A stretch of 64,000 nt of DNA from Omphalotus guepiniiformis (lineage: Eukaryota > Basidiomycota > Agaricomycetes > Agaricales > Omphalotaceae). Every line of letters starts with the position of its first letter. Positions within the stretch are counted from its first letter, which is position 1. Below are positions 28,249 through 63,975 of the stretch, in pieces. The notes under the pieces are model-generated. The model worked only from the letters and a program-made list of their open reading frames with translations, made no database searches and was not told where the DNA came from. The position numbers and the translations under genes are program-made. Location: the NCBI GenBank assembly GCA_028554645.1, contig JAQOOI010000051.1, forward strand, positions 248,001-312,000, written 5' to 3'.

Positions 28249-28308
28249 ATGTCTGGAATCACTGACACCTCACAAGGAAAGTCACTCCTCAACAAACATG
28301 ATAACTTC

Positions 28309-37899: not shown

Positions 37900-38053
37900 G
37901 TGGCTTTAGACTTGATAAATTGAACTATCTGTGTATTTACACGTGTCTGGAAATAAATCTGGACTTTTCCTGTGTTGAACTTTGCCCTGTTCCTCACTTA
38001 GCAACAATTTCCTTGAAGTTGTTGAACCATCTATAAGTTTTATAACTTAGAGT

Positions 38054-39946: not shown

Positions 39947-41352
39947 AGTTTCCAATGAAGGGGATTGGTGAAGAAGCTGTATATACTCAGAATCCTTCTC
40001 ACAAAACAGGTCAATCTCCTGAGGAAAGTAAACTTGTAAAGAAAAAGAGAGTTGAAGTGTTACTACCTACACTAAGACCATCTGAAAGGGAGAAATACAG
40101 ACCCCCTGCTATGAGAAAAGAGCCCGTTTGTTTTGAACTACCTGTTGATTCTGACACTGAGGAGATTGAATCTCCCTCTGAAAATCACAATGATGTTGCA
40201 CGGAGAGTATCTAACCGTCCGTTTGATCATGTAAAGGCAATAGATAGGCCACCTATACCAAAGGAAATGCCTGTAGGGAGCCAGAGCAAGTCAAATGAGA
40301 CTGAAGGAGCTCAATCTGGAACTAAAGATGGAATGGATATTGACACAAGGAATGCTATTGTATACACAAAGCCTCCGCGTAAATCTGAGCCTGATTTCAA
40401 GCTTAGAAACTCATTATTCAAACCGGGTCTAGCAGAAGAAATTGCAGACAAAATCTTTAGATCTGAGATAGATATAAGTAGTGGGGATCTCATTGCTATA
40501 TCTCCGGCACTTCAGAAGACTATGCAGAGAAAATTGAAGAACAACAGGGTGTATAAGCGTCCTGTAAAGGCTTTTGTTCATGAAGTAAAGGATGAAGATG
40601 ATTCTGATGGTATTCTACCAGAAGAAGATGTCAATCTGGTACAGGCAAATTATATGGTCTTTATTGAAGATATGGCCTATGAAAGGGAAGATGTGTTTAT
40701 TGTCCTAGATGAAGATACAGATGACCTTAAGAAAGGCTCAGTGGTACACAAGGATGTTGTGGACCAGTATCAGAAAGATGTACCTCCAGATGAGAGGGAC
40801 AAGATCATTATAGTAGCCAGCCAGACTGACAGTCTAAAGGCAATCTACCCAAAGATTAATCACTCTGATCAACAAGTTGAGACAGTAGTTGATAGTGGTT
40901 CTCAAATCGTGTCCATGGATACAAGAGTAGCTATTGGACTTGGTTTAAGATGGGACCCAGAGACTGTGATCCATATGCAAAGTGCAAATGGTCAATTACA
41001 GGCTACTAGGGGACTAGCAAGAAATGTACCATTTACCTTTGGAGAAATAACTATCTATATGCAGATTCACATAATAGATAAAGTGCCTTATGATGTTCTT
41101 TTGGGAAGACCATTTGATGTGTTGACAAGCAGTGTAGTCAGAAACTTTGAAACTGGAGAACAAGAGATCACCATTACCGATCCAAACAGTGGAATGAAGT
41201 GTACAATGGGAACATATGACAGAGGTAGAGGAATTAAGGTTAAACCTATTCCTGGTGAACCAAAGCTTGTTCCTGAAGCACAGAAATCTGCGAGTGTCCC
41301 TGTGAAAAATGAGAGAGACTCTCAAAATTTTCATCGGACCTCAATGAACTGA
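39934..41352 (+). CDS. Protease frame (Pro) of element P
   Basis: First ATG at 39955, but entry is probably by -1 frameshift from gag, as the frame opens at 39934. A long, charged, poorly conserved first part is followed by an aspartic-protease domain: VVDSGSQIVSMD (catalytic Asp about residue 316), then VLLGRPFDV in the second half. The product would cut the polyproteins. The frame is open throughout, unlike gag and pol of this copy. Confidence 0.85.
   Translation, partial: VEKLEFPMKGIGEEAVYTQNPSHKTGQSPEESKLVKKKRVEVLLPTLRPSEREKYRPPAMRKEPVCFELPVDSDTEEIESPSENHNDVARRVSNRPFDHVKAIDRPPIPKEMPVGSQSKSNETEGAQSGTKDGMDIDTRNAIVYTKPPRKSEPDFKLRNSLFKPGLAEEIADKIFRSEIDISSGDLIAISPALQKTMQRKLKNNRVYKRPVKAFVHEVKDEDDSDGILPEEDVNLVQANYMVFIEDMAYEREDVFIVLDEDTDDLKKGSVVHKDVVDQYQKDVPPDERDKIIIVASQTDSLKAIYPKINHSDQQVETVVDSGSQIVSMDTRVAIGLGLRWDPETVIHMQSANGQLQATRGLARNVPFTFGEITIYMQIHIIDKVPYDVLLGRPFDVLTSSVVRNFETGEQEITITDPNSGMKCTMGTYDRGRGIKVKPIPGEPKLVPEAQKSASVPVKNERDSQNFHRTSMN
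39937..39943 (+). promoter_or_regulatory. Gag-pro -1 frameshift site of P (altered)
   Basis: GAAAAAC in the gag frame directly before the TAG stop; the protease frame lies in -1. At the aligned position M has the canonical GGGAAAC, so the P site looks like a weakened derivative. Confidence 0.6.
41325..41331 (+). promoter_or_regulatory. Pro-pol -1 frameshift site of P
   Basis: AAATTTT in the A-AAT-TTT register of the protease frame, 18 nt before its TGA stop; the pol frame continues in -1 as FSSDLNEL. M has the same heptamer at the same place. Confidence 0.75.
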
Positions 41353-44300: not shown

Positions 44301-45437
44301 ATTCATGTAGATGTGTTCAAAGTATCACCTCCAAGTAATGGTTGCAAGGATGTTGTACATGGCAGATGTGCACTCTCATCCTGGTCTGAAGGAAGAGCTT
44401 TAAGATCTGACAATGCTAGATCATTGGGAGAATGGTTCTTTGATGATATTATATGCAGATGGGGATGTCCTGATGAAGTAGTAACTGATAATGCACCCCA
44501 GATGCGAGCTATGCTTAAATGGCTAGAAGATAAATATGGAATTAAAGGAATTACTATATCTCCTTACAATTCCCAAGCAAATGGCAAGATTGAGAGAGCC
44601 CACTTTGACATTAGAACTGCCTTGGCAAAAGCTACAGGTGGAGATCTAAAGAGATGGTGGTGGTTTCTCAAACATGTCTTCTGGGCAGATAGAATTACAG
44701 CTAGAAAAGGACTTGGATGTTCACCATACTTCCTTGTTACTGGAGCTGAACCTATCCTACCCTTGGATATTGTTGAATCTACATGGTTAGTAAAACTTCC
44801 AGATAGAATCTTGACATATGAGGAACTCATTGGCTATAGGGCACAAGCTCTAGCTAAGCATAGAACCCATGTGCAGGAGATGATATCTAGAATTGATACA
44901 ACCAAGAAAGAGACTCTTAGACAATATGAAGAAGAATACAGAAATGTTATCAGAGATTTTGATTTCAAACCTGGTACACTTATACAAGTCAGAAATACAC
45001 AAGTTGAGAAGAACTTGGACAGAAAAATGTATCCTAGATACCTGGGACCCATGATTGTAATAAGGAGAACCAAAGGGGGATCCTACATTGTGGCCCAGAT
45101 GGATGGTACAGTACTCAGAGAAAAGGTTGCTGCCTTCAGAGTACTACCCCATGTAGCTAGATATGAACCAATTGAACTGCCTGAGAACATTCATGAACTT
45201 ATAGACTTAACTAGTGAACAACTGGAAGAAATGGTCAATGATAACATTGAGTTAGACCCTGAACTTGAGAGAGATTACATCTTTGACAGTATTCCTCAAC
45301 TGAGAATTCCTGCTGAAGATGAAGATCTTGATGAGTCCAGTGATGAAGAACTACAATCTGCAAACGATGCAGATGAAGAAGAACCAGATTGGGATGCTCC
45401 AGTCCTGACTAGGTCTCAATCCTCACAAAATAAATGA
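41333..45437 (+). pseudogene. RT-RNase H-integrase frame of element P, three stops
   Basis: One frame interrupted at 42024-42026 (TAG), 43416-43418 (TGA) and 43839-43841 (TGA); each stop aligns with a Trp codon in M. Domains: RT with YIDD, RNase H (VDTSWMAVG, REL, TDASYI), zinc-binding HHCC (CQICQNRK) and integrase D-D-E (HVDVF, VTDNAP, KIERAHF), ending in an acidic tail. Apart from the three stops the frame is clean. Confidence 0.9.
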
Positions 45438-45639: not shown

Positions 45640-47033
45640 TCAGAGGATGTCTGCAGATGGAAATGCATGGAAAGGAGCTGGATCATCAGCAGTACCTGGA
45701 CCAGACTCCAAGGGACTCTGGTTGGCCCTGTAAGCCTTCTCCTTCTGTCTCCGGAGCAATTCCAGACGGGAAAACTCCTTGTAGGCGAATCTGTACTGAG
45801 AATAATGGTACTGAATGGCATGTTGATGAACACTGAGTTCTGTCTTCAAGAAGTTGGAAATTGATTGAAGAACCTCAGGAGAGAAGTGGTCCAAGTCCAT
45901 GAAAGGGAACAGAGCAGTGATACGGGTCACAATCTCTTCTCCACTCTCCCGGAGTTTGCGCTCATCTGCAGGATAATTGAGCTAGATACTCGACAAAACT
46001 GCAGATTGGGTGACTACTCACGGTCTGTCTCCTCTCTAAGGTTGACGATTGGGTTTTCAATACGAGGCTTCTTCATGACAATCACCTTGTGGGGCTCAGG
46101 AATAGGTTTATTCTACATGAACATTTATAGTCAGTACATGGAACTACTTGAGCAACTCCAGATGGAACTAAAAACTTACATCTTTGGGTCCAACTGAGGT
46201 AGCCTGCAGAGTTACCATGGTACATCAGTCTAGAGAAACGAATGAACAGTTCTGAACATAAATCTGCTCACCCTTGGAGAAGTGGTTACTACTCTTTCCT
46301 TGGAAGACTTGTGAACTGTGGTAGTAGTGGAAGAACCTTTGGTCTTGTCCTTGCTAGAGTCCTTGCTATCCTTATTGGGAGCGTGGATCGACGCAGAGAG
46401 CCCAAGAGAAGGTCCATCTGCCATCTAAGAAAAGAAAGACCATATTGAGATTTGAGTTAGATACTCAGGAGTTAGATACTTACAGTAACGTCTCCGTCAC
46501 CAGTAATGACCTCAATCTCTTCATCGTCATCATCGTCATCCTCAATAAGTTCGGGAGTTTTAGCTGGCTACACACCGATAGGCAGTTAGATACTCGAAAT
46601 GAGAGGGTTGGTCAATAAAAACGTACTTTGCGCTTCTTAGATCCGCTGAGAGTCTCTCTGCGCTTTGCCAAGTCGTCCCGGAAAGCTTTAATGGCGGAGA
46701 AAGTGTCAGGTTCACCTACGGATGGGAACTTCTTGACTGCATCTGCGACCAGATTGACATCTTTGTCGAACAAAGTGAACGCTTCCTCGGACTTAGCAAC
46801 TGCATATGCAGGCAGAGACTTCTTCTGTAATAAGAAATCAAGTTAGATACTGGACCTGGAATCAAAGATTGAACATTTACAAGATGGCTAGCAAGGGCTG
46901 TAATAAGCATCCCAAGCAGTTCAGTGTCCGCATCTTTGGCCTCCATGGCTCCAGTAGCACGAGAAAGATATCGCTGCGTTGTGGCAACCCACTCAGGACG
47001 CTCAGGCCAAGTCTTGGGACCTTTAGGGGCCAT
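45640..47033 (-). CDS. Antisense gene B' of element P (seven exons)
   Basis: Exons read on the minus strand: 47033-46881, 46824-46627, 46567-46484, 46424-46272, 46203-46180, 46112-46022 and 45965-45640, all with GT-AG introns, giving 342 residues without a stop. Homologous to gene B of M (348 residues): same size, phase-0 introns after the first exons, a KRK donor exon, and a phase-1 intron inside the EETD motif, followed by a conserved helical C-terminal region (LFPFMDLDHFSPE versus LAFVPYYDYDQLTLE). Highly charged, with acidic and Ser-rich low-complexity segments; no enzyme motif or membrane segment. Function unknown. A nucleic-acid or Gag partner role would be a guess. Confidence 0.8.
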
Positions 47034-47871
47034 AACTGTAAAATATAGAGATAGAGAAATGATAAAAGTGGAAGGGTTGTAGAACCAAGTGATAGATGGT
47101 GCTGAGTCGTTCTGAATCTGCGCTGCACCTTTTATATCTGGTCTACCCCGTCTAAATCTGCACGTTGGTTATTACTCCTATGCTGTTCAAACAGGCACCA
47201 TGAGGCCTAGCCAGCGTAGCAGATTGATCAACGGGGATGTTGAAGTTAATTTTACTTGGGGGGAGAGAGCACACAAAGTTGACAAGGCCAAAATTTTGAA
47301 TTTTTGACATTTCAAATATCTCAAATCTGGAGATCTAGACAGCTTTGACCGCAGAGGACTTAGCCGAATAGCATTGCCAAGTAACTGAGAGCTCTCAACC
47401 TTGACAGAAAGGACTTATTAAATTCAATGTATCCTCAAAAAGAAATGATACCTATTGAAAATTGTGGGCTTAAGTCATTTTAAGAATTGTTTCCCTCTCA
47501 AATCGAGTTAGATACTCAATTTGAAGGAGACTCTCAAAGTTATTTCTTATGTTTCACACTAGATTCATACCAAGAAAAGTGAAACATATATTTTGTGCAT
47601 GAAAGCTCAGTACTACTATGAAGATACTTCGACCTATACTACTATAAAGTAAGTACAGGGAGTATCTACAGAAAAAGCGAGGTATAAAATTTTTATATAT
47701 TTGGGCAACCTGGTGTGTTGAACACCAAGGCTACCCGCGACGAAATGCGAACGGATACGGCAGGTCCCAGCCAAGTGAAGAGAACGACAGATCTGTGAGA
47801 TTGGGACTGAGAGATGGAGAAAGTAAAGGGAAAAAGGGGTACGAACTATGTGCGCACCCGAGCCTTGAAAG
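47034..47871. other. Intergenic region between A' and B' with a PPT-like tract
   Basis: Holds the B' promoter and, at 47254-47270, ACTTGGGGGGAGAGAG on the pol sense strand, which looks like a second polypurine tract. GAGTTAGATACTC occurs at about 47506. Confidence 0.55.
47128..47136 (-). promoter_or_regulatory. TATA box of gene B'
   Basis: TATAAAAGG on the minus strand, 95 bp before the B' ATG. Gene B of M has TATAAAAG at nearly the same distance, so B is probably transcribed from its own promoter. Confidence 0.65.
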
Positions 47872-48332
47872 TCACTCTGAGAGGGGATCATCCCTCCCAG
47901 CTAGTGGACTGCTTTCTGGCACTAAGACCCTGCCTGTCGTCTCCTCCTCCAGCTCGTCCTCCTTGTCCTCATCCTCTTCGACCGTGACTTGCGAGGCACC
48001 GACCGCCTGAGGCGATTCGTCGATGACTGTAGCAACGAGAGTGGAAGGAACATGGGATGGACCAGCTTGCTGTTCGACCTCTGGATCCACCACGACGAAA
48101 CGACCAGATTCGTTCCTAGTGATATAGCTTGCCCGAGACACCAGGTTGATGTCCCAGCCAAGCGCAGTAGCCAGTAACTTGAGCTGTTCGTCCGAATAGT
48201 CGAACGTCGGGTCGCCAGTCTGAACCTGATGTAAAACGAGACGAGGGTCGCAACACGAAGCCTTGATATGATCTTGACGCTGCAAGATCGTTCGGTGTAC
48301 CCGTTCCATCACTCGCATCTGCGCGGAGACGC
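47872..48332 (-). CDS. Antisense gene A', 3' part (split by element M)
   Basis: Continues the exon that starts at 63099 on the other side of M; the frame passes from ...EDMQNSV into SAQMRVMERV once one ACGC copy is set aside. The segment includes a charged helical stretch, the conserved LLATALGW motif (LLAAALGW in A of M), and a long acidic C-terminus. The stop is at 47872-47874. Before M inserted, A' was evidently open. Confidence 0.8.
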
Positions 48333-49709
48333 TGATGAGAATGAATCGGGGAAATGAACTGCTAAAGGGCTAATGAACAAAAACCCAAAAACAACCAAAA
48401 CAACCAAGTCACTCGAAAGGTGCGAGTCTGAGGGGGCGTTGTCGAAGGTTCCGCACGACCAAACTTATGGCTTCTTTATTAGAACTTTATATCTTTATCA
48501 CAAGAACTTTATAGCTGAGCTTTTAAAATGCACTAAGGCAAAAAGTAGCACAAGACGGTTTTGAACAAGACAGGTGTTCACTGCACAATCACAACCAATT
48601 GACCACAAGATCAAACAACCAATTCCAATAACACAACCAGTTCAATTCAACCAACAATGATCTTTATACAATATCGCAATAAACACCGGACTATAAACAG
48701 ACCAGGGCAACTTTATGTTTTTGGTAGGATTTCCCTTCACAGGCACGATTCACGTTATAAAGACGATCCCCAGTGACCCTGTGACTCTATGGTACTCTCC
48801 TGGATTTTCTCTCTCCAGGTTACTGCCCTTTTATACATACTGCCAGTCCAAAATTAATAAAAACGGAAATTATAGCTAAACTGTCCTGTTTTATATATAT
48901 ACCTATATCCGTGTATGTAGGTTGTAAGTATCTGTGTCAAGTATGTCCATTATTACTTGTATAGATCTATTTTATGAGGCAAAACCTCAAAAATGCGTTT
49001 TAATTCCATTATTTTTATTATAGTCAATATTCAGCCCCTTTATTTCATTTTTACGGATTTCCTTGACATTTCTCGGGCATCCGGGTTCCATAGGATTAAT
49101 CACCTGATAGAAATTATACCCCTCAAAGTATCACATTGTTTTGTTAAAGGAACTCCTTCAATTCAGTAGTATTCCGAGAAATTTTACTGATCGAGTTTTT
49201 ACACCTCCTAACCGGTTTCTTGTCAAGCAATTTTCACCAGACAATTAATCAAAGCAAATTTCCTCGATCAACTTTTGTTCCTGGCGATTAATTAAGGAGT
49301 AAATACCCCAAAACTATTCTAGATCCATTATTTCGACTCTATTTCGCGTCCCATCCATTTTTAGTTTCCGCCGGGTTTTTATTCTTTATTGACCGGAGGA
49401 AGATGTTCCCCTAATAGTTATATGATGCAATTGACGTTGTGATGTCAGAGTTCTCGTTACGAGATTGGGTGAGTCTGATTCAACAGTGGATGGCTATTGA
49501 ACAATTCTCTACATCACAACTGTACTGACTAGCCTAGAACCTTGATACACATGTTGTACCGTAGGTAATAGAACATGCTTTATTACTCAAATCACAACAC
49601 ATTTTGATTGACAAGGCGGGCACCTTTCAACCCTCTGATACCTCACTGCAAATGCCTAAAATGATTAATCACCTGGCTTTTAATGCAGATGCCGAAAATC
49701 GGCGCATCA
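48333..49709 (-). repeat. 3' LTR of M
   Basis: 1377 bp, TGATGCGCCG...ATTCTCATCA on the minus strand. The end next to the internal region forms a small inverted repeat (GATGCCGA...TCGGCGCATC). One T fewer and about four substitutions compared with the 5' LTR. Confidence 0.95.
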
Positions 49710-49720
49710 TCTCCCCCAAA
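49710..49720 (-). other. Polypurine tract of M
   Basis: TTTGGGGGAGA on the minus strand, directly before the 3' LTR. An identical 11-mer occurs inside the element at 52654-52664. Confidence 0.8.
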
Positions 49721-50275
49721 CTAAAATCTTGACCGTCCCCGGTCAATTCTTCAGCCAATCTACTGACTTTTATTTTATAGTACAGCAGTTGTTAAGAGTT
49801 CAATAAAATTTTCCTCCAACATTATTCATCCGGTCAATATTCCATTATTCAAACACCGGATCGAAAGCCGCTATGGCACGATCACGTGACTTTTTGCCGA
49901 ACTGCCGGAACTGAATACAAACAGCTTTGGCCTCACGAACTCAGAAGTGTGTTTTCCTAACTCGTTCATTTTAAAGTTTTTCTGGAATATCGGCCCTCAA
50001 CACGAGCTGTTTCCCATCATAGGTGAGTCATTATTACCTTATACGTTGTCATGTCTTTTATTCACATCTTTTTGCTTTTCACGCCCGTCACTTCATTATA
50101 TATGGGCTCAACTTTGCTTTTTCTTTCTTCTTATGATTCCTCTCCCTCCGACTCTCAAAATTTACAGAGCGAGCCGGAACTTCGTTCTTTCTCTTCTGAC
50201 TTGTATTCTACTTCTTTTAATCGTTCTATTCTTCTTTTGTGTTGGCTTCATTCTCTCCCTTCTTCGTTTGCTCCA
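49721..50275 (+). other. Upstream region of gene A
   Basis: About 555 bp between the PPT and the A start codon. Pyrimidine-rich near the start codon, with a GGTGAGT donor-like site near 50020 that may belong to a 5' UTR intron. No clear TATA box at the usual distance. Confidence 0.4.
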
Positions 50276-52354
50276 ATGGCGCCCAAACTACCAACAGACG
50301 ACAAACGCGGTAGCAAAAAGACGGCCCCAACCGTCGAAGTAACAAGCTCTCGAAAACGCGTCGCTAAATCGAAGAATCCTGTCCCTTCTTTCGAGCCAGT
50401 CTCTCTTCCCCTTGTTCGACACCATATGTTACAAAAGTCGTTAACAAAAATTCAGTCCCAACTTTCCGAAATTTATATCGCCAACTTCGAATCTCCGGAC
50501 TACGAGAACGATTATCCCAGTGCCCGTGTCCTGGAGGCTCTAACATACGCATACCTCGACTGGGTAAGACATTTTCTTTATTTTCTTTGTTCCTTATATT
50601 AATATTTTTATTTCTACCTTCTAGTCTCATTTCTTCGACGACTGGGCTAACGAGACGGATCTGCCTTATTACGCCCGTTGCTTCTGGTGGTCTATTTCTC
50701 GTCTTGCTTGGTTACTTCGCGACAAGGAGTGTAAGGAGTACAAAGACTTCGAACCTCTCGTTATCCCAAAAGCGACTACGAAACGACTTCGCCAGCTGAA
50801 ACTTTCGGTAGCTCCCTCATTATATTTCCCTTTTCTTTACTAATTCTCTTTATAGCCTTTTCCTCTTTCTCGACAATTACCGGACGTGGACTCTTACGAC
50901 TTCAAGAACGAAGCCTCCTTCCAATTCGATTCCTTGCCTGAGTTTTCCGCTCCTCTCGATACCGAAACATCTTCAGTTGCGCCTCCTGTGAAGGTTCTTA
51001 CTGAAAATCCGCCGGTCGAGGATGAATACTCGCCTTCTTCCACCGACTCCGACGATTCCGAGCAGCTAGACGAGCTCGCTTCCCCTCCTAAAAAGAAGGC
51101 GAAACGCGACCCTTCTCCTTCTACTTCCAAGATCGTCACGCGTTCTGCAACTAGGAAACCCGAGTCGGTTGCTCCTGCTCGCGGTCGTGGTAGACCCAAG
51201 AAGATTAAACCCGAGGTCCGTATTCTTTTTACTGCTCTTATTTTCCTTTTATTTATTTCATCTTTGTCTAGGCTACGGAAGCAAGTGCCGGTGAAGACGA
51301 TGAAGTTGTCGACACTGTTACCGCCAATCCGTTCGAGATTACTTACGCTACTAACGCAGTAAGTATCGTTTCTTTCATCTTTCTTCCTTTTATTAACCTT
51401 TTAAAACAGCCTACTGGAAGCCAAAAATCGCTCACACACGAGATTCACGTTTCGCCTCTGCCGCTGCCACTATCCCTTTCCAATTCGTCGATCCCACCGG
51501 CTTGCGGCATAAATTCAAGGACCTCGTCTCTGTCAATCGGTCTCTCCAGGGTTACAGTCTCAACCCGATCTGCGCTGGCTGTTTAACCGGCAATTTGAGT
51601 CAACCGTGCGTCTGGCGCGGAGAGGATAATAAGTGCAGCGTCTGCGAGAAGTGGAAACGCCCATGTTCGTTCCAGTATTCCCTTGACAGCATGGCGAAGG
51701 TTCGGGACCTAGCATACCAAGAAGGGCGTCAACACCCTGCAGGTAAGTCCTCATCCTTTTCCTTTCATTATATCTTTCTAATAACTTTCTAGTTATCAAC
51801 TCGCACGTTTCCAATCTTCTACAGCTTCATACCGAGTTCGATAGTCTGGTTCGACAGTCGAATCAAGCACGCGAGTCTGCCAAACGGCTTAGTTCGTTAA
51901 TCCACACCGAGCAGCAGCATCTTCGCGATGCTTGCATCGATGCTCGTAGCGTCCTTCGTTCTCTCGAACCTGACGCCGACTTCCTTGCGAACAAGACTCA
52001 GATGGAGCTATTGGCTGCCGCGCTCGGTTGGAAGGTTGACGACTTCCGTCTTCGCAGCGCCGTCGACGTCAACGACCAAGGAGAACCGATCGCAGTGGAT
52101 CAAGCGTACCTTGATAAGGCCAAAGAAAACGCTAATCAAAGTGCAGGCGTTGGGGAATCTGAGGAGGTAAGTCCAGAACCTTCATTCATTATTTCGTGCC
52201 CCAGCGTCTTCTTTTGAATTACTTTCTTTACGCTTATCTCGACGGTCTCGTTTCTTTGTAGGTCGTGCTGCGTCGCATCGAACATTTATTTTACACCTTG
52301 TCATTACCTCATCGCTGCCTGTACCTAAGTTTAAGCTCTACCCATTGCTTGTAG
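50276..52354 (+). CDS. Antisense gene A of element M, Zn2Cys6-like motif (seven exons)
   Basis: Exons 50276-50563, 50625-50807, 50856-51215, 51272-51358, 51421-51742, 51793-52166 and 52262-52354; every junction keeps the frame, giving about 568 residues. The last intron is the least certain (without it the stop is at 52215-52217). Basic Ser/Lys-rich start, a Trp-rich block (FDDWANE, FWWSISRLAWLL), an acidic then basic segment with RGRGRPKKIK (AT-hook-like), then six cysteines, C-X2-C-X8-C-X8-C-X2-C-X6-C, resembling the fungal Gal4-type cluster, a helical stretch and LLAAALGW. A' of P has the same Cys pattern with longer loops. A DNA-binding or regulatory role is plausible; not shown. Confidence 0.78.
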
Positions 52355-52653
52355 ACACTTAGTGTACAAAATTTATCATTTTTATTGTGTGCCTCTTCTT
52401 AATTATGAAGGATTTTACACCTTAAGACTCTAAGAAATCAAAATCACAGCTGACTTTCTAAAGTCCGGCTGAAATTCAAAATCGAAGGATTGTTACTCAG
52501 CGCTTAAATTCCATTTTAAGAAATGCCCACAACTTCGTTATTACATTCTTTTAGCTTTATTATTCTTTTTATTCTTTATGTTTCTTTTAATTTGAAGGAT
52601 GAATATACACCAGATAATAAATATATTGATAAGTTTTCCGGAACTTGTCACCC

Positions 52654-52664
52654 TCTCCCCCAAA
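52654..52664 (-). other. Internal polypurine tract of M
   Basis: TTTGGGGGAGA, the same 11 bases as the terminal PPT, about 190 bp before the B start codon. P has a similar tract at the corresponding place. Confidence 0.55.
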
Positions 52665-52767
52665 CCAAAAATTTCAGCGCCCCCGCTGAACATTATACCC
52701 CTAAGAGAATTTGAAGACGATTTTTCGACCTCAAAAATTTTCCGCCAGGTACAATACATTTTTCAGC

Positions 52768-52775
52768 TATAAAAG
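52768..52775 (+). promoter_or_regulatory. TATA box of gene B
   Basis: TATAAAAG, 89 bp before the ATG of B. Position and sequence match the box before B' in P. Confidence 0.65.
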
Positions 52776-52856
52776 AACAAATGTAAGGATCGTAAATTGC
52801 ATCGAACCAACATTCATTTGTTCTATAACTCGTTATCACAAGCTCTTACTTTCTCA

Positions 52857-54171
52857 ATGGCCCCTACTCCCTCTTTCATCAAAGAAGACTGGCTTGCTTT
52901 GCTGGAACTTCGTCGCGGCACCTTTGACCGTGCTCGTGCTCGTAACGTTCCTGATGGAGAGATGTTCCAATTCGCTAAGACACTTTGTGACTTCTTGGTA
53001 CGTTATTTCATTTTTAATAATCGTCCGGCGTTTAATAATAATTCGAGTTTAAGGTTAAACCCCTCGATATGGCTACTACAGCTGCCGACGACGAACTCTT
53101 CAAGAAGTTTGAAGACAACGTCACTGCCCTGCAGGCGGTTATGGCGGCTCGTCCTCAAATGTCGCCTCTTCGTTCTGTAGCCGGACTTCAGAAACACCTT
53201 GACCGTATGGTTCAAGAACGCCTGAAGAATGCCGCTGCTGCTGAAGCAGTTGCTAAGGCTAAGGAAGAAGGTAACAATCGGAAACGCAAGGTACGATTAT
53301 CTACCGGACTTATATTCATTATCAAACTTTATTCCAGGGGAAGGAAACTCCCAAGTCAAAGGCTGTTTGTGACGACGACGACAATGTTGAAGTCATTATT
53401 ACCCCTCCTCTCGACAAAACTGTCGCTGAAGCACTTGTAAGTAATTTCCACCCGGTAATTAATACTTTGTACTAACATTTTGGACACATTGTTCTTACAG
53501 ATGACTGACGGTACCAAGGACTCTAGCAGTGCTAAAGAAGCTAGTGCCATCAAGAATCTTACTGTAAGTCACTCATTATTTTCAACCGGACCTATATTAA
53601 ATCGTTACTAGTTCCGTAAAGCAGAACTTATCGCGAATCAACACGCCGTTGTAAGCATGCCATACTCAGCAGTTCCTGGATTGGATCAATCCTCTGGCGC
53701 GTACAGGAAGGCTAACCACTACATTTCGAAGGGCTTTGCGACATCCGGCCAAAAACGACTTAAGTTGGAAACAGCTGTTTCAAACCTTAGTGAAGAAACT
53801 GACTGTAAGTACACACTTAATAGTATTCAACATACATTCTGACATTATTCTTTATAGTTGAGAAGGCCCTACGTGATATGGCTCACACCAGTGTTCTTAA
53901 GACACTCGCGTTCGTTCCATACTACGATTACGACCAGCTCACGCTCGAATCTCTTAAGGCTATACACAATTGCCTTCGTACGGAGTGTTCTACCCTCGCA
54001 CACATCGTTCAAACCAACGGTGCTCGTTATCGTGACATGCAGAAGCTAGCAGACAATCTTTCCTTAGTTATTAAGAAGAAGTCCATTAAAGGTAGTTCCG
54101 ATGTGGATGGAGATGACTCCATGGACTCAGTAGACTCTACCTCTACCACCGACATGACCACTGACGAGTAG
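52857..54171 (+). CDS. Antisense gene B of element M (six exons)
   Basis: Exons 52857-52997, 53054-53290, 53338-53436, 53501-53563, 53612-53804 and 53858-54171, all GT-AG, 348 residues in frame. Starts MAP and a Trp-containing helical block, then a basic segment ending KRK, an acidic segment (DDDDNVEVI), a Ser/Lys-rich segment, the EETD motif split by a phase-1 intron, a C-terminal helical region, and a Ser/Thr/Asp tail. Homologous throughout to B' of P. No known domain recognised. It converges on the 3' end of pol, with 156 bp between stop codons. Confidence 0.82.
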
Positions 54172-54327
54172 TTCCTTGGTACCACTTTATTTACAACGTT
54201 CTTTTTAAATGTCCAGCATATATTATATCTACCTAAACACTGTCCTTACTATACCTTATGTTCATACTCAGAGTCGTGTAGTGACTAGATGACTTTGTAA
54301 TGAAGGATACTAGTTGCAACTTCGAGT

Positions 54328-57300
54328 TCACGTCTGTCTTTTTGACCTGGTTTTGACTCTTTCGTCCCAATCTGGTTCCTCATTGTCTTCTAAGTTGTCC
54401 CCAAGATCTGAATCACTGTCGTCTTCATCAGAATCGTCCCCTTCAAGCCTAAGATTGGGTATGGCATCAAAAATATAATCTGTATTTTTGACCAAGTCTT
54501 TATCTTCATCCTCAATCATAGCTTCCAATTGCTTACTATCCAAGTCTATTAGTTCATGAATATTGTCTGGCAATTGTATAGGTTCGTATCTGGCTGCATG
54601 TGGTAGGACTCTAAATGCTGCAACTTTTTCTTTGAGCACTGACCCATCCATTTCCGCAATAACATATGATCCACCCTTTGTCCTTCTGATTACAATCATG
54701 GGACCCTTATATCTTGGATACATCTTTCTGTCTAAACTCTTTTCAATCTGAGTATTCCTGACTTGAACCAGAGTTCCTGGTTTAAAGTCATAGTCCTTTA
54801 TAGTATTTCCATATTCTTGTTCAAACTTTATTAAAGCTTTTCTTTTATTTTCATCTACTCTTTCTCTCATTTCATTCACATGAGTTCTATGCTTAGCTAG
54901 AGCTTGTGCTCTGAATCCAAGTAATTCTTCATGAGTCAGAATTCTGTCTGGAGGTTTAACCAACCAAGTTGATTCCACAATATCCAAAGGTAGTATTGGC
55001 TCTGCCCCAGTAACTATGAAGTATGGAGAACATCCAAGACCTCTTCTAACAGTCACTCTATCTGCCCAAAAGACATGTTTCAGAAACCAGTACCATCTCT
55101 TCAAATCTCCACCAGTTGCTTTTGCCAAAGCAGTTCTGATATCAAAATGAGCTCTTTCTATCTTCCCATTGGCTTGAGAATTGTATGGAGATATAGTAAT
55201 ACCTTTTATACCATATTTCTCTTCCAACCATCTCAACATTGCTCTCATAGCTGGGGCATTATCAGTGATAACCTCATCAGGGCAACCCCATCTACAGATA
55301 ATGTCTTCAAAGAACCATTCACCCATTAACCTTGCTGTCTCTGATTTCAATGCTCTACCTTCTGACCAAGAAGACAATGCACATCTACCATGAACAACAT
55401 TTGAACAGCCATTACTAGGTGGTGACACTTTAAACACATCTACATGAACCTTTTGAAACAAAGAAGGTGTATAAGTAAGAGTGGGTGGTATTTTCAGAAG
55501 TTCCAACTTTCTATTCTGACAAGCCTGACATGATTGGACAAACCAATTAATATCTTTCTCCATATCTGGCCACCAAAATCTCTTGTCTATGACAGCTTTA
55601 GTTGCAAACATCCCTTTATGACCCAAGTTGTCATGTGCAGCATGCATCATGTACATTCTCTTTGCCTTAGATACAACCAACTTGTGTTGACCATCTAGTT
55701 CTTCATTCCTTCTATACATTTTACCATCTTTATCAACAAAGAACTTAACAGCTTGTCTTAGAAAAGATCTCTTTTCAGTTTTATTCAAACTTTTAATAAC
55801 AGCTGAGTTCTTGTCTAGATGCCAATCCTTTATTAAAGGTAGAAGATCGTCCATCTTCTTTCCTTCATCCCTTCTATGTACCTCACTATAAGGATGAGAA
55901 TTACTCCACTCTGGATCTCCTGGTGGAATTACTAAAGTTTGAGCAAAAGCACCCTTCACCATTCCATGAGCTTCTAAAACTCTAATCCTATAACATTCTG
56001 CAATTCTTTCTTCTTCTATGCATTCTTGCAAATCATCTTCAAAATCATTTTCAGAGTTTGCCATTTCAAAAAGATAACCACCTCTATTGTCTATTTTATC
56101 TCTGAAAGACTCAAAGTCTAGTGGTATATCATCTTCTTCATTTTGCATTCTAAACTGTAATGGTTCTCCATTATCTTCATCTACATAGTCTTCCTCATTT
56201 ACAGGTGGTCTTTCAGTTGTTATACCTCCAGGACCCCTTCTAGATAGACCATCTGGTCCATGTAAAGTTCCCTTAACATGTACCAATGTAAACTGATATT
56301 TCCTTATATCCTCTATCCACCTGTTTATAGTTGCATTAGGACCTGAACTGGGATGATCCAACATGCCCTTTATATAGCTAGCATCTGTTTCCACAGTCAA
56401 ATTCCTACACCCATAAATCAAGTAATAAGAAGCTTCTAAAGCTAATTTCAGACCATACAGCTCTCTCTTTGGTTGAGAAAACCTTGCTTCCCTTTCATTC
56501 AATGTAATTGAACCAAAGTAGTTAAAGTACTTCTTCTTAGGATCTTCTGGGTCAGTCTGATATATATAATATCCAACTGCCATCCAAGAGGTATCTACAG
56601 CAAGTGTAATCCCATTTTCTGACATATAGTCTATAGGTCTCAAACAAGGTGCAACTCTGATAGCTTCCTTAAGAGCTACTACAGAATCCCATTGTTCAGC
56701 CTTCATCTCAAATGGAACATTTCTGGTCAAATATTGCAAAGGTGCAGCAATTTTAGCATAGTCCTTTATAAATTGTCTAAGTTGGCCAGCAGTACCCAAG
56801 AAAGCCCTGACATCTGTTTTAGAGTCAAATCTTTGCCATGTAGTAACCACTTCTGCTATCTTATTAGAAGGTGCTTGACCCTCATATAAACAACGGTGAC
56901 CAACAACCATGCCTTCTTTTACACAAATGAATGCCTTTGTACCAGAAAATGTACCACCAACATATTTCATTCTTTGTATCACTCTATTCATATTTTGCAT
57001 ATGTTCCCATACAAATCTCCTTATACCATTGTTTTGAGGAATAGTTTCATATCTGCCATCTGGTAACTCATATCTTGTTGCTGGACCCCTTACAGGTACA
57101 TCATCAACATAAGGTATAGTCACATGTGGAATTTCATCTCTTAGAATGAAAGTAACATCATCATGAAAGATAGGTACTGAGTTAGTCCAACCCATAGGCA
57201 GTTTTACTAGTCTATGTGGGCCAAATGGTGTTTGGAAGGTGGTTAAGTCTCTAGAATCATCATCTATCAACCTTTCATCATATCCAACAAAGATGTCCAG

Positions 57301-58262
57301 TGTTCCTAGACATGCTCTTCCTGCAAAGTTTCTAGCAACATCTGCAGTAGCTGGTGGAATTCCTGAATGTTGTATAGTAACTTTATTCAATGGTTCCAGA
57401 CTATGCACCAATCTCAAACTTTTTCCATCTTTCTTTAAAACACAAAACCATTTTGATCTATAAGAAGAACTTGAAGGTTCATAAACTCCAGAATCAATTT
57501 TTGCCTTTATAATTTTACACACATCATCAAATATACCAGGTGGTATTGGAATGTTTCTTTCAACCCAAGGTACATGTGGTAAGACTGGAAATCTCACAGG
57601 TGGAAAGAAATCTGTTCTAAAGTTTCCTCCTTCTGCAGGTTCCCAAGCAAAAGCTTTTTCCTGTTGTTTCATCAAATGATGAACTAACTTCATTTCTTCT
57701 GGCCATAAAAAGCCTTCATCATGATTTTTATCTATGATATTCTTTCTTTCTTCATTGTATCTCTCACCCGGTGTGAACTCAGGTGGATTTGGAGATAATT
57801 CCGGCATTTCTGCTAACGGATCACCAAAAATATTCCTTTCTACACGGAACTCAGCCGGTAAAGTAGCTTTAACCGGTCTAACTTTATCCTTTACAGATTT
57901 GTACTTTCCATACACATCTACAAACTCTTTATCAGTCTTCTCTTTCTCTATATTACAAGAATTTTCCTCTTGAAACATAGTATCCTTCTTTTCTTTCAAC
58001 TCTTCTCTCCAACTACAGAACACTTGCTTATCCTTTCCCCTACTCTTTATAGCAGTAGAGTTCATATAAGCTTCTAGCACTTCTGCCGCTTCTTTATCTT
58101 TTTCTACATACTCTTTAGCAGCAAATACAAAAGTTTCTGCCAATTCTTCTTTCTTAAAGGTTCCATTTTCATCAGGTAGTTTATACCCATCCACAAACAA
58201 TTCACCATTTTCTTTCAGGCCAATTCTTAGAGCTACCTCTCCCTGAGGGCCAATCAGATCAT
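54328..58262 (-). CDS. RT-RNase H-integrase of element M
   Basis: 1290 residues counted from the ATG at 58200; the frame is open upstream into the protease frame and is probably entered by -1 frameshift. RT with LDIFVGYDE (Asp 302) and YVDD at 364-367; RNase H Asp 536, Glu 580, Asp 606; zinc-binding H853...C891-X2-C894; integrase D921, D980, E1015; then a GPMIVI/GGSYVI module resembling GPY/F and an acidic tail. No chromodomain seen. All catalytic residues are in place, so the enzyme is probably functional. Confidence 0.93.
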
Positions 58263-59656
58263 AGAGGTCTGAAAATTTACAACCCCTTCTTGTACATCTT
58301 TAGGTACCACAGGTGGAGGTCTACAAATCTCTTTAAGAGTAGATCCTTCTTTCTTCTGTTCAATTCTAACACCTCTTCCTCTCAGATAGGTTCCAATAGT
58401 ACACTTGTAGCCAGAATTTAGATCAGTTATGGTTATCTCTTGACCTCCATCCTCAAAGTTCTTTATTATACTTTGGGTGTTTACATCAAAAGGTCTACCA
58501 AGTAAAACTTGATATGGAGCCTCTTCCACAATATGAACTTGCAAGTAGACTGTTAAGTCCCCAAATACAAAAGGTACATTTCTAGCCATACCCTTAGTAG
58601 GCTTTAAACTCCCATTTGCACTTTGCATGTGAATCACTACATCAGGATCCCATGACATTCCAAGTCCCATTGCTACCATTTGGTCCATTGATATGATCTG
58701 AGAACCACTATCTAGAACAGCTTCCACAGTTTCATCAGAGTTATTGATTTTTGGGAATACTACTCTAAGTCCTTCTGATTCTCTAGCCACCAGTATAACT
58801 TTATCTTTCTTGTTAGGACCTAGATCTCTAAGGAATTGCTCAACTACATCTTGGTGAACAATAGTACCAGCTTTCAAATCACCAGTATCTTTTGTCAATG
58901 TAATGAAAGTCTCCTTTAAAGACCAAATATCCTCAACATTTACTTTCTTTATTGGTTCCACCTCAGAGTCCATTTGAATAGGATTCAAATCATTCTGATT
59001 AGGTTCTATCTGCAAGAAAGCCTTCTCTGCTCTCTCAACAACACTTCTATTTCTAGCTTTTCTCAATATGACAGCTCTAATGCCTGGAGATACAGCCATA
59101 AGGTCTCCAACTGGAACAGTAATATCCATATTGAAAATCTTTTCTGCCATTTCCTCTTCTAAACCTGGTTTAGATAAAGTAGAGGCATGTCTAAAATCTC
59201 CAATCCTTCTAGCTGTTTCTTTATAGACTATAGCATTCTCTTTATTACTTTCTTTCTGAACATTTCTAGCTTTTTCCACCACTTCATTTCTAACTTTGTT
59301 CAAAGCTTGGTTACTAGGAATAGGATCTCTTTGTAATGGTTCCACTCTATCAAATGGCCTTTCTTTAGCAGGTTCAACATTAATCTCTTTTTGACCTGGT
59401 TGAATTACCATATCCTTTATAGAAGGATCCATTATATCCTCTTGATCTCTTAGTAAAGCCTCTTCATTATCCTTGGTTTCTTTCTCTAACTCCTCCATTC
59501 TCAAGGGTGGAGGTACATACAACCTTTTATCAAATCCTTTAGGCCTTATAATTTCTACTTCCATTCTCTTTTTAATACCAACTCTTTGTTTATCCTCAGG
59601 GACCTTCTTTGCGGTACTGTACATATTTCTAGTACTAGATCCCATCATCGGAACAC
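58254..59656 (-). CDS. Protease frame (Pro) of element M
   Basis: About 464 residues from the ATG at 59648; the frame is open a few codons further up to the gag slippery site. The first 300 residues are charged and without known domain; LDSGSQ (catalytic Asp 313) and VLLGRPFDV mark the retropepsin-like domain. The stop at 58254 falls just after the second slippery site. Separate pro frames between gag and pol are uncommon in Ty3/gypsy elements. Confidence 0.92.
58272..58278 (-). promoter_or_regulatory. Pro-pol -1 frameshift site of M
   Basis: AAATTTT (A-AAT-TTT in the protease frame), 15 nt before the TGA at 58254-58256. The -1 frame continues FSDLYDLIGPQGEVAL into pol. Conserved in P. Confidence 0.8.
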
Positions 59657-61129
59657 TTAGTTTCCCGACTGGCTCAAGTAAGAAGCCTGACCATTTGAAG
59701 TCTGGCTTTTATCCTGATTTTCAATTCTGTCCAATCTTTCTGAAATCTTCAACAAGGTGTTGGTAAAGACTGACATATCAAAACTATTATGTTGAGATTC
59801 AGAAGGTCCACTAGGCATATTATATCCCATGTCACTTTCTTCTGCAAAGATGAAGGCATTTTTGCCAACTTCCTTATCCCAACCTTTTTGTTTAGCAATA
59901 GCTTCAATTTTGTCCTTTCTAGAAGAATTCATATCACCAGATGGAGCAACTTGTCCATCTTTCATGACTATCATTCCTCTTGCATTCCTAACTAAATATC
60001 CCTTCTCAAACTGTGATTTCTGGTGAGGACAATTTGTAGCAATATGCCCTTTCTCACCACAGAAATAACAAGAATATTCTGTAGGTCCTTGTGGGTTTGC
60101 ATATCTATTACCACGGTTCTGACCCATAGCAATAGATTGCATGTGTGGTATATTCATACCATTGTTACCACCTAATGTTTCTGCAAGAACTTTTTGAACT
60201 TGAGAGATCAAGGTAGCTTGATTCTCTTCAAATCTAGATTGCACCTGTTTCAAGGCAACTTCATGCCTATCCATTGTATCAGCAATCTTTCTTTCAAATT
60301 CATTCTTCTCAACATTCTCCCTTTTAATATTAAAAGGTGTGTAACTTCTTTCTCTTTCTATTTCAGAAGCTAGAGACATGCCGACTATTGCAAAACCATC
60401 ATCCATGTTATTCTCACAGATGTGGGCAGCAGCAGCTATCACATCCTCAATAGGATACTTGTCTTCCCTTCTTCTAGGATTATCTGGATTAGCTATATAA
60501 GTCTTTTCCAGTCTATCCTTTACTTTATCCCAGAAAGCAGGTTCTAAGGATCTGCCAAACAGAGTTACTGCCTCTAAGTTAGAGATAACAGCCGGTGGCT
60601 TTGCAGCTTTCTTATACTCATATTCAAACAGCCTTTTGAACTTGAAGAACTTATCAAAGTTCTTCAATGGAATATATGCATACTCTGAATTTAACTTTCT
60701 CAACTTGGTCAGAGAACCTCCTTCTTCTAAAGAAGACTCTGGAAAGTTTTGTTTCAAAGCATCTTTGAATGTTCCCCACTTTCTACTTTTTGTTTCAGGG
60801 TAAGCTTCAACCCTTTTCTTTGTATCATGAGTCATCCAGTCTGTAGCTAAGTAAATCTTTGCTGCATCATCTTTAATTCCCATTTTCAGGAATATTTCTT
60901 CCACTTGTTCCAACCAGCTTATCAAACTGCCAGGATCTACATGGTCAAAGATTGGTGCCATTTTTGATTTCTTAGGAAGCTTATCATTCTGGATTTCCTT
61001 TAATGCTTCTGGGGAAAGTTCATGAACTCCCACAAAAGTTGTCCTTGTATTATCATTGTTTCTGGGTATATCATCATCTCCTCTACTTTGTCCACTTGGA
61101 CCAGCACCAGTAGTACTAGTAGCAGGCAT
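59657..61129 (-). CDS. Gag of element M
   Basis: 490 residues from the first ATG of the whole leader (61129). Contains a typical capsid-like helical region with Trp-rich stretches, then a CCHC knuckle CYFCGEKGHIATNC near residue 355, then a KDKIEAIAKQKGW segment shared with P. The frame is open for another 115 codons upstream (see the N-terminal extension). The product packages the RNA in virus-like particles. Confidence 0.92.
   Translation of the reverse strand: MPATSTTGAGPSGQSRGDDDIPRNNDNTRTTFVGVHELSPEALKEIQNDKLPKKSKMAPIFDHVDPGSLISWLEQVEEIFLKMGIKDDAAKIYLATDWMTHDTKKRVEAYPETKSRKWGTFKDALKQNFPESSLEEGGSLTKLRKLNSEYAYIPLKNFDKFFKFKRLFEYEYKKAAKPPAVISNLEAVTLFGRSLEPAFWDKVKDRLEKTYIANPDNPRRREDKYPIEDVIAAAAHICENNMDDGFAIVGMSLASEIERERSYTPFNIKRENVEKNEFERKIADTMDRHEVALKQVQSRFEENQATLISQVQKVLAETLGGNNGMNIPHMQSIAMGQNRGNRYANPQGPTEYSCYFCGEKGHIATNCPHQKSQFEKGYLVRNARGMIVMKDGQVAPSGDMNSSRKDKIEAIAKQKGWDKEVGKNAFIFAEESDMGYNMPSGPSESQHNSFDMSVFTNTLLKISERLDRIENQDKSQTSNGQASYLSQSGN
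59660..59666 (-). promoter_or_regulatory. Gag-pro -1 frameshift site of M
   Basis: GGGAAAC in the G-GGA-AAC register, followed at once by the gag stop TAA (59657-59659). After a -1 slip the frame reads LSVPMMGSSTRNM, that is, straight into Pro. It is one of the best-known -1 slippery heptamers. Confidence 0.88.
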
Positions 61130-61480
61130 AGTAGTAACTTCTCTGAAACTCTTTTTAGATTTTTGTGCTGAAGCAGGTAGTCTATAAGACTTTCCAAATC
61201 CAACAGTAGATTTAGGCGGACGTAAACGATCAAATTCACCGGGTATGAACTCCCGATTATTGTCAGATGACAGAACAAAAGAACCAGGTAATACTGGATC
61301 AACACTTTCAGGCTCTGGTACTGATTTCCCTTTGCCCTTAGATGCAGAACTAGTAACACTTCTTTCTCTTGTAGAAGATCTGGATTGAAAGTTTAAAACT
61401 TCTTCACCAGCTCTTTGGGAATTCTTTGTCTGACGTTTTGGTTTAGGTTTGCTAGGTCCACTAATTTTGACCAGTGAACT
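61130..61480 (-). CDS. AUG-less N-terminal extension of Gag (M)
   Basis: In frame with gag and bounded upstream by TGA at 61481-61483. Shares LVKIS, KNSQRAGEE and SKGKGK with P, with third-base differences, so it is translated. There is no ATG on this strand from the PBS to 61129. A CTG at 61472-61474 precedes GTC AAA ATT and could be the start; a spliced leader from the LTR is the alternative. Confidence 0.65.
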
Positions 61481-61634
61481 TCACAATCCAAAATTAAAGC
61501 AAAAGCTCTATGTAGCACTGTATAGAACAAAACAGTACTTTATTGCACAACACAAATCTCCTTGTAATTCAAACGGTAAAATTCCGTTAGAAAGCCACGA
61601 ATTCGTCCCTCACGAAGTCAATTTGTACTTTTGA

Positions 61635-61652
61635 CCCTCGCGGTGGGCTCCA
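61635..61652 (-). other. Primer-binding site of M
   Basis: TGGAGCCCACCGCGAGGG on the minus strand, two bases from the LTR end; same as in P. Confidence 0.7.
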
Positions 61653-61654
61653 GA

Positions 61655-63032
61655 TGATGAGAATGAATCGGGGAAATGAACTGCTAAAGGGCTAATGAAC
61701 AAAAACCCAAAAACAACCAAAACAACCAAGTCACTCGAAAGGTGCGAGTCTGAGGGGGCGTTGTCGAAGGTTCCGCACGACCAAACTTATGGCTTCTTTA
61801 TTAGAACTTTATATCTTTATCACAAGAACTTTATAGCTGAGCTTTTAAAATGCACTAAGGCAAAAAGTAGCACAAGACGGTTTTGAACAAGACAGGTGTT
61901 CACTGCACAATCACAACCAATTGACCACAAGATCAAACAACCAATTCCAATAACACAACCAGTTCAATTCAACCAACAATGATCTTTATACAATATCGCA
62001 ATAAACACCGGACTATAAACAGACCAGGGCAACTTTATGTTTTTGGTAGGATTTCCCTTCACAGGCACGATTCACGTTATAAAGACGATCCCCAGTGACC
62101 CTGTGACTCTATGGTACTCTCCTGGATTTTCTCTCTCCAGGTTACTGCCCTTTTATACATACTGCCAGTCCAAAATTAATAAAAACGGAAATTATAGCTA
62201 AACTGTCCTGTTTTATATATATACCTATATCCGTGTATGTAGGTTGTAAGTATCTGTGTCAAGTATGTCCATTATTACTTGTATAGATCTATTTTATGAG
62301 GCAAAACCTCAAAAATGCGTTTTAATTCCATTATTTTTATTATAGTCAATATTCAGCCCCTTTATTTCATTTTTACGGATTTCCTTGACATTTCTCGGGC
62401 ATCCGGGTTCCATAGGATTAATCACCTGATAGAAATTATACCCCTCAAAGTATCACATTGTTTTGTTAAAGGAACTCCTTCAATTCAGTAGTATTCCGAG
62501 AAATTTTACTGATCGAGTTTTTTACACCTCCTAACCGGTTTCTTGTCAAGCAATTTTCACCGGACAATTAATCGAAGCAAATTTCCTCGATCAACTTTTG
62601 TTCCTGGCGATTAATTAAGGAGTAAATACCCCAAAACTATTCTAGATCCATTATTTCGACTCTATTTCGCGTCCCATCCATTTTTAGTTTCCGCCGGGTT
62701 TTTATTCTTTATTGACCGGAGGAAGATGTTCCCCTAATAGTTATATGATGCAATTGACGTTGTGATGTCAGAGTTCTCGTTACGAGATTGGGTGAGTCTG
62801 ATTCAACAGTGGATGGCTATTGAACAATTCTCTACATCACAACTGTACTGACTAGCCTAGAACCTTGATACACATGTTGTACCGTAGGTAATAGAACATG
62901 CTTTATTACTCAAATCACAACACATTTTGATTGACAAGGCGGGCACCTTTCAACCCTCTAATACCTCACTGCAAATGCCTAAAATGATTAATCACCTGGC
63001 TTTTAATGCAGATGCCAAAAATCGGCGCATCA
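61655..63032 (-). repeat. 5' LTR of M
   Basis: 1378 bp with TG...CA ends; carries the promoter of the gag-pol transcript by position. No reliable TATA box assigned. Confidence 0.95.
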
Positions 63033-63975
63033 ACGCTGTTCTGCATGTCCTCGTAGGTGTCGATGAGAATCTGCAACTGCTCAGCTTCCTGAGAGACAAC
63101 TAAGAAATGAAGAATCTTTAATAAAAGATATATAGAGAAATGAGAAAAATATATACCTGCACTGCCGCTGCGAGCCAACGTGTAGGAGAGACAACGAAGC
63201 TGATCGCTGCCTTCCAAACCGTACGACCAGCTGCAGGTGTGGTTGTCCTTTGCGCAGGTAGCGCAGCGCCACTCGAATGTCTTGCTGTTAAGTTGGGGAC
63301 GGCATTCCCGCCCTTCTGTGTGTGTACCACCTACGCACGAAGCACAGATGGAGTCGCCAAAGAACTGAATAATGATAAAAGGGAATATTAGTGAACATCT
63401 ATCTCGAGTCAGAAAGATACTCACCCTGTCGAATGTGCGGTTGACTGAAACAAGTTGCTGTAAAGTAACAGGACGGCCATAAGGCCATCCAAAGACAACA
63501 CGGCCTGTAAAAGAACTGTTAAACAAACGCTAGAAAAATGAAAGTGAAGGATACTTACCAGGTACCTGCTCAAAGGCCTCCTTGGCACGATTCTGCGGCG
63601 TACAGCCATCTGAGCGCTAAGGAAGACATTGTCAGTAATAAGAGCTGAAATAAAAGAAATGATGAGACTTACGTGGAGATTTGGGGCCTCATGACGGGTG
63701 CCCGGGGCTAGAGAAACAGAAGATGTTGCGAAATCGGCGCGAGAAGCCCACAAAGGAGCCTCGAAGTCGATATTGAGATTGACTGGGGCTTTGGAACCCT
63801 CAGTCTTGACCAATTTCTCCTCTTCCTTCTTATCCTCTTCCTCGTCGCTGGATGCTGGTACAGTGACTGGAGTCGCTTTCGAGCGAGTCTTTCGAGACGC
63901 TGATTCATCAACCGGTTCTTCTACCCGCATCTTCCGAATCTTCGGTTGTGGCTTGACTGCCTGTTTACCCTTGCC
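63033..63975 (-). CDS. Antisense gene A', 5' exons (partial; gene runs off the window)
   Basis: Exons on the minus strand: 63975-63673 (preceded by an acceptor TTACACAG), 63616-63559, 63504-63425, 63364-63157 and 63099-63033, the last continuing at 48328. All in frame. Contains KTRSKAT and an acidic segment, LVSVNR shared with A of M, and the six-cysteine motif C-X2-C-X10-C-X12-C-X2-C-X6-C followed by WSYGLE (FQYSLD in A). The start codon and promoter lie beyond 64000. Confidence 0.8.

Follow-up and report, generated by a model that had tools for sequence, protein, structure and literature searches.

A multi-exon pair of antisense genes between pol and the 3' long terminal repeat of Ty3/gypsy elements in Omphalotus guepiniiformis

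Two nested elements and their antisense genes

The stretch analysed here, called the window, covers 64,000 nucleotides of the basidiomycete Omphalotus guepiniiformis (contig JAQOOI010000051.1, positions 248,001 to 312,000 of the forward strand) and holds two retrotransposons in opposite orientation, namely a young Ty3/gypsy copy (M) and an older element (P) into whose gene A' M was inserted. As stated in a preliminary description of the sequence, each of them carries two multi-exon genes, B then A (B' and A' in P), on the strand opposite to pol and between pol and the 3' long terminal repeat (LTR; Table 1). M belongs to Ty3/gypsy by its LTR pair (~1377 bp, with 4 mismatches and 2 gap columns between the pair in the alignment), its 4-bp target duplication read from the flanking sequence, and its gag, protease and ribonuclease H (RNase H) ahead of the integrase; the gag, protease and RNase H/integrase frames overlap and all lie on the - strand. 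At an E-value of 0.001, Pfam matched the RNase H and the integrase zinc domain of M pol, and it matched there neither the reverse transcriptase (RT) domain nor a chromodomain. Both A and B of M are coding genes antisense to pol, past it and within the LTR pair, an arrangement known in plants as aORF-3R.

The protein features given in the preliminary description were also recovered. Indeed, B and B' are open, with 348 and 342 amino acids (aa) respectively, and share the place of a phase-1 intron at the EETD motif, while the six-cysteine motif and the ALGW motif are present in both A and A'. In P, one stop in the gag match and three in the pol match make up the four reported; exons 1-9 of A', traced past the window and partly in locus L041, have no stop and the remaining exon 10 is open to its end, so that A', in the parts read, is broken only by M. 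The statement that all exons join in frame in four genes held for B, B' and A' (in the parts read) but not for A of the window copy, in which a private short insertion in exon 5 shifts the frame, and whose exons can be joined in frame solely through an alternative acceptor nearby, giving 554 aa. Gene A is open, with 546 aa, in six of the nine M-type copies aligned across the whole gene, the window copy being among the three broken ones.

Table 1. Coordinates of the features of elements M and P in the window and of family X4 with its antisense gene
Feature	Position	Strand	Remarks
Element M, young Ty3/gypsy copy inside gene A' of P	48333..63032	-	LTR pair and flanks, 4-bp target duplication
3' LTR of M (relative to pol)	48333..49709	-	repeat pair, alignment
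5' LTR of M	61655..63032	-	repeat pair, alignment
gag open frame of M	59657..61480	-	zinc knuckle
Protease open frame of M	58254..59708	-	
RT/RNase H/integrase open frame of M	54328..58299	-	1323 aa
Gene A of M, 6 exons	50276..52217	+	six-Cys motif in exon 5, ALGW in exon 6; exon 5 frame-shifted in window copy
Exons of gene A of M	50276-50563, 50625-50807, 50856-51215, 51272-51358, 51410(or 51421)-51742, 51793-52217	+	
Gene B of M, 6 exons	52857..54171	+	348 aa, open
Exons of gene B of M	52857-52997, 53054-53290, 53338-53436, 53501-53563, 53612-53804, 53858-54171	+	
Polypurine tract by 3' LTR of M with 7-bp palindrome	49710..49746	.	upstream of A
Second polypurine-like tract with 7-bp palindrome	52654..52690	.	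upstream of B TATA box
gag, protease and pol of P	38051..45437	+	1 stop in gag match, 3 in pol match
Gene B' of P, 7 exons	45640..47033	-	342 aa, open
Exons of gene B' of P	47033-46881, 46824-46627, 46567-46484, 46424-46272, 46203-46180, 46112-46022, 45965-45640	-	
Gene A' of P, exons 6-9 and start of exon 10	63033..63975	-	
Pieces of A'	63975-63673, 63616-63559, 63504-63425, 63364-63157, 63099-63033	-	exons 1-5 beyond window, in L041
Gene A' of P, remainder of exon 10 across M insertion	47872..48332	-	with ALGW
Family X4 with its antisense gene	L045 485-1966; L046 2752-3297	- (L045)	

Linkage, homology and selection

Repeated linkage to gypsy pol and a ratio of nonsynonymous to synonymous substitution rates (dN/dS) well below 1 had been set beforehand as tests of a functional module, and both were found in the window's own genome (one genome, 42.5 Mb in 80 contigs), in which the integrases, with identities down to 57%, fall into five or more families (M, P, P2, Q and R). 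As only the best candidates are scored by the search, copy numbers are minimum values, and the integrase listing holds the best 135 of 380 candidates (57-100% identity). At 129 of these 135 integrase matches, a B exon follows 670-882 bp downstream in the opposite orientation; at none (0/135) does one lie on the same strand. By family, with bins set by rank in the integrase listing, the linkage amounts to 24/26 in M, 51/52 in P and P2 together, 41/44 in Q with stragglers and 13/13 in R, for which the B exon is the positional counterpart. Starting from the B side, 159 last exons were collected (some partial, one with its start read from another row for that place, and a 50-residue Q fragment, C20:2195341, excluded); 30 had no listed integrase, nine of these paired with further integrase matches, and in total 138 of the 159 are antisense to a pol, the other 21 being unpaired. 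No free-standing A or B was recognised among the matches listed in this genome, where A and B were likewise not seen mainly as single-copy host genes, the finding that would have spoken against the preliminary description.

Homology of A and B is clear from the sequences of M, P, P2 and Q. BLASTP between M and P, with L038 representing P and L021 supplying A of M, reached E-values of 1e-16 in the case of B and 7e-21 in that of A; values among M, P and Q ranged from 8e-14 to 2e-39 for both genes, and P2 is P-like, with a B 75% identical. Intron positions agree as well: in B of M, P and Q, phase-0 introns follow exon 1 and the KRK motif, and a phase-1 intron lies at EETD or its equivalent (P from L038), and in A of M, P, Q and R a phase-1 intron follows the Cys exon. 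The most distant family, R (integrase identity 57%), carries two antisense genes at positions corresponding to those of A and B; its A has the six-Cys motif and aligns weakly to A with hhalign (P 0.0019, probability 15), which lends weak support to homology, and its B is identified by position.

Our results further demonstrate that A and B are under purifying selection, similar to that on the unbroken pol end. For B, dN/dS was 0.07-0.34 in the 28 pairs among eight M-family copies, with 25 pairs below 0.2, and for A exons 4-6 it was 0.04-0.20 in nine of ten pairs from five M copies, the tenth being saturated and five of the dS values exceeding 1.9 and thus rough. For the pol end, three pairs gave 0.09-0.11, and the two pairs with L032, in which it is apparently broken, gave ~0.5. 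Over longer distances, B of P versus P2 gave 0.12 (dS 1.38, dN 0.17), and P of the window versus L038 gave 0.09 for B and 0.08 for A exons 3-9. Intactness points the same way, since 17 of the 18 fully covered M-family B copies (21 rows, three partly covered) are open and 17 of 18 keep GT-AG borders throughout the five introns, the exception being L032, which is gapped at one acceptor; of eight P-type B' loci (ten rows), five are open, two have a premature stop and one is partly covered. Being present in most copies and conserved like the other element proteins, the two genes agree with aORF-3R in these respects too.

Chance open frames are ruled out by homology, dN/dS and linkage, in line with the earlier argument that random sequence would not yield such exons, and captured single-copy host genes, none of which was recognised among the matches listed, are largely refuted by dN/dS and linkage. 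It could still be argued that the pair consists of host genes captured by chance, or is conserved merely through the youth of the copies, since many copies are nearly identical and distant relatives of the antisense gene of another family (X4, see below) lie in arrays near contig ends; however, conservation, including intron positions, extends across families with high or saturated B dS, and free-standing genes were not recognised among the listed matches (21/159 B exons unpaired), which makes this explanation extremely improbable. Likewise, the antisense transcript itself might do the work, by pairing with genomic RNA or feeding RNA silencing and so limiting copy number, the proteins mattering little; such a role has been proposed for antisense transcripts of other elements (available part of PMC7264820). 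This is very unlikely here, as frames that stay open and a dN/dS around 0.1 call for a function at the protein level. Altogether, structure, linkage and selection lead us to conclude with high confidence that a basidiomycete Ty3/gypsy lineage encodes A and B as accessory genes of its own elements.

Some side observations were made by eye. The sequence GTATCTAACT is repeated in introns and flanks of P and P2 (e.g., in a B' intron, window 46440-46480) and is perhaps branch-site-like. One P2 copy (L039 1-1350) is joined to what resembles a copia-type pol; in the sequence there, no match to A was found, nor any to B ahead of residue 117. Left of P, long open frames at window 16633-33096 resemble copia-type elements.

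Exchange of gene A, palindromes and protein features

Gene A has been exchanged between subfamilies. When copies L021 (M1) and L029 (M2) are compared, identity is 97-100% from the LTR through the leader to ~50150, then 49-58% over 50350-50950, 70-80% to 52150 and 84-91% to 52550, and again 96-100% through B and the pol end. The divergent stretch corresponds to A and part of the spacer behind it (window 50276-52500), with its left border near the A start codon, and L021 versus L034 gives a similar profile with 91-98% outside A. Synonymous divergence repeats this picture, with a dS of ~2 for A between subfamilies as against 0.085 for B of the window copy versus L029, which represent these subfamilies, and, more mildly in P, 0.60 for A exons 3-9 versus 0.10 for B. 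Template switching between co-packaged RNAs would be the simplest cause. A more elaborate reading holds that A and B guard family identity, A recognising its own family (for superinfection control or evasion of host silencing), and that A alleles are therefore swapped by recombination. The contrast between LTR and pol end (97-100% in M1/M2) and A (49-80%), its repetition in L021 versus L034 (91-98% outside A) and the excess of A over B dS (~2 versus 0.09, and 0.60 versus 0.10 in P) are what it would lead one to see, but neutral template switching also yields swaps, and the Cys motif and the A-side palindrome arms described below are nearly unchanged across the M swap; we consider this reading rather improbable.

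All five families (M, P, P2, Q and R) have a tract of the CTCCCCC type, whose pol strand is rich in purines, followed by a palindrome of 5-7 bp with a 3-4 nt spacer, and each element has two such sites, one beside the 3' LTR before A and one between A and B before B. The B-side tract of R is a looser match, the B-side palindrome of P in the window is imperfect, and at the length tested one palindrome was not found in L032 and neither was found in L034. Between families, the two arms vary in concert, so that pairing is retained as the sequence changes. Covariation was measured on ten hand-picked sites, with the R A-side, window P, L032 and L034 sites left out. In this set, 94.3% of the cells pair, and covariation reached 0.740 versus 0.199 after shuffling (0/500 shuffles reach it) and at most 0.10 when slid, although the choice of sites and the setting of the register favour the structure. 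The palindromes could be an RNA hairpin near the second-strand primers or a protein site. In addition, a TATA box lies 46-111 bp before the ATG of the B gene tested from each of the five families and 73 bp before the antisense gene of X4.

The A proteins of M, P, Q and R share six cysteines in the order C-x2-C-xn-C-xn-C-x2-C-xn-C, with a spacing that differs by family, and both A and B of M, P and Q have KR-rich and acidic tracts; the last exon of B is predicted to form two helices (predicted local distance difference test, pLDDT, 76). Searches of Pfam with A, B and B' gave nothing near any cut-off, and the A profile gave nothing below E 2 in the PDB. Outside this genome, the B profile found no relative at E 0.01 among the best 7999 candidates, and a search of 362 candidates with a last-exon profile yielded a single match (P0121, 97 aa, 69% identical, E 1.2e-27, on a metagenome contig). 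The searched database does contain the agaric clade, since the integrase relatives that carry a name belong to Moniliophthora, Lentinula, Agaricus, Armillaria and Galerina. In viral_contigs and genome_contigs, 2 and 16 pattern matches, respectively, included no confirmed relative.

Three more gypsy families, all with a chromodomain, were sampled by one copy each (L043, L044 and L045). No comparable antisense gene was found in frames of at least 90 aa in L043 and L044, the latter having antisense frames of 126 and 92 aa. In contrast, X4 (L045), whose pol has 1307 aa, carries a single antisense gene, with three exons and 461 aa, between pol and the 3' LTR, which matches an upstream copy at 99.8% over 546 bp and places the gene inside the LTR pair. 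Its protein passes the Pfam Zn_clus (PF00172) cut-off (22.9 versus 21 bits, E 8.9e-5, in two partial stretches), LEU3 is the best PDB match of its Cys piece (E 0.061), and the Cys motif of A resembles that of X4 in layout. The X4 gene is antisense at 22 of the 27 integrase matches assigned to this type, a count that omits shorter antisense pieces, two of them near counted misses (C25 and C46). Distant relatives of the X4 protein (31-51%) were observed in arrays on C1, C4, C5, C13 and C15, several near contig ends; it is possible that they represent a host or subtelomeric family that was the source of the X4 gene.

Possible role and relation to known systems

The best explanation overall, for which we see about as much chance of being right as wrong, is that A and B are accessory genes acting in the nucleus on the element's own DNA. 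Both would be transcribed from their own promoters in each inserted copy, antisense to the genomic RNA, as the B TATA box suggests, and the proteins would most likely enter the nucleus to act there, A as a divergent zinc-cluster DNA-binding protein and B as its basic/acidic helical partner. The sense genomic RNA carries the splice signals of an antisense gene in reverse, and the introns would survive reverse transcription because these signals are unread in it. Tentatively, and with confidence slightly short of even, we propose that A and B set the transcription or silencing of their family, for which the palindromes next to both polypurine tracts would be candidate sites. The linkage, the purifying selection, the kept frames and introns, the B TATA box, the charged tracts, the six-Cys motif, the zinc-cluster gene of X4 and the covarying palindromes speak for this overall explanation. 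It is unlikely, though worth stating, that agaricomycete gypsy elements encode a regulatory circuit of their own, in which A and the X4 protein, as zinc-cluster DNA-binding proteins, recognise family-specific palindromes at the two polypurine tracts, mark each family as self and are exchanged by recombination among subfamilies like recognition alleles.

Several observations weigh against these nuclear roles. The A proteins of M, P, Q and R have no Zn_clus (PF00172) match at E-values up to 10; they resemble Zn(2)-Cys(6) proteins, among which the X4 protein passes the cut-off, in the layout C-x2-C...C...C-x2-C-x6/7-C, but their loops are longer, the Cys spacing of GAL4 being tighter. The AlphaFold model of the Cys exon of A (exon 5) is unusable (pLDDT 45), no clear TATA box stands before the A genes, and B of R has no sequence support for homology to B of M, P and Q. 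Two of the five covariation measures are ordinary, namely the pairs changed on both sides (5; 81/500 shuffles reach this) and the further pair types (11; 51/500). Finally, the A-side palindrome arms are identical in M1 and M2 despite the swapped A, so that binding of A there is only a guess.

Alternatively, A and B could be integration accessories, the DNA-binding A together with B escorting the DNA copy into the nucleus or tethering it to chromatin, as chromodomains are thought to do for chromoviruses. The missing Pfam chromodomain match in M pol (E 0.001), the nuclear-type sequence features of A and B and a purifying selection similar to that on the pol end are consistent with this role; however, an antisense zinc-cluster gene is present in X4 despite its chromodomain, and the antisense placement with its own promoter is left unexplained, making it an unlikely reading. 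Accessory genes acting on the element's own DNA remain our preferred explanation.

An antisense gene after pol is already known from plant gypsy lineages and from the fungal element Boty, from which the spliced pair differs; the comparisons that follow rest on the available parts of the cited papers. Boty, a gypsy element of Botrytis cinerea, has the antisense gene brtn (PMC7264820, PMC8365987), which qualifies the novelty expected in the preliminary description; this is one named gene in an ascomycete host, likened here from the descriptions of citing papers. In plants, the aORF-3R genes of Grande (gene23), RIRE2 and PvRetro13 resemble A and B, as described, in being antisense between pol and the 3' LTR and conserved among copies, and for Grande an own promoter and a nuclear protein were reported (PMC7264820); unlike them, the elements studied here have two multi-intron genes each and a six-Cys protein. 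Retand elements share with ours antisense open reading frames (ORFs) as a lineage trait and a long region between pol and the 3' LTR, and their TRP28 is predicted to bind DNA; TRP28 is confined to flowering plants, and the word 'intron' is absent from the main text of that source, as available (PMC11963269). HBZ of human T-cell leukaemia virus type 1 (HTLV-1) is an antisense gene as well (PMC11963269); by description rather than sequence comparison, it is like the proposed A and B in being a nuclear regulator antisense to the main genes, and unlike them in belonging to an animal retrovirus.

In the titles and abstract openings examined, a scope with most subscription journals outside it, no spliced antisense pair in a fungal gypsy element was found, nor were its many introns, the exchange of A, the zinc-cluster lead or its occurrence in several families, four of them supported by sequence and one by position. 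In the available part of a fungal survey (PMC3248453), 'antisense' was not found, and the figure key of another paper (PMC2864245) names an 'additional ORF' of unknown function.

The available part of PMC7264820 assigns no settled function to the additional antisense genes of LTR elements. In this context, a single genome with more than 100 copies in several families, many with intact frames, makes selection, recombination and linkage measurable and the function testable, and the zinc-cluster match of X4 provides a concrete DNA-binding lead for the role of such genes. More generally, these elements suggest how genes with four to nine introns can persist through a replication cycle that passes through RNA, namely by lying on the opposite strand.

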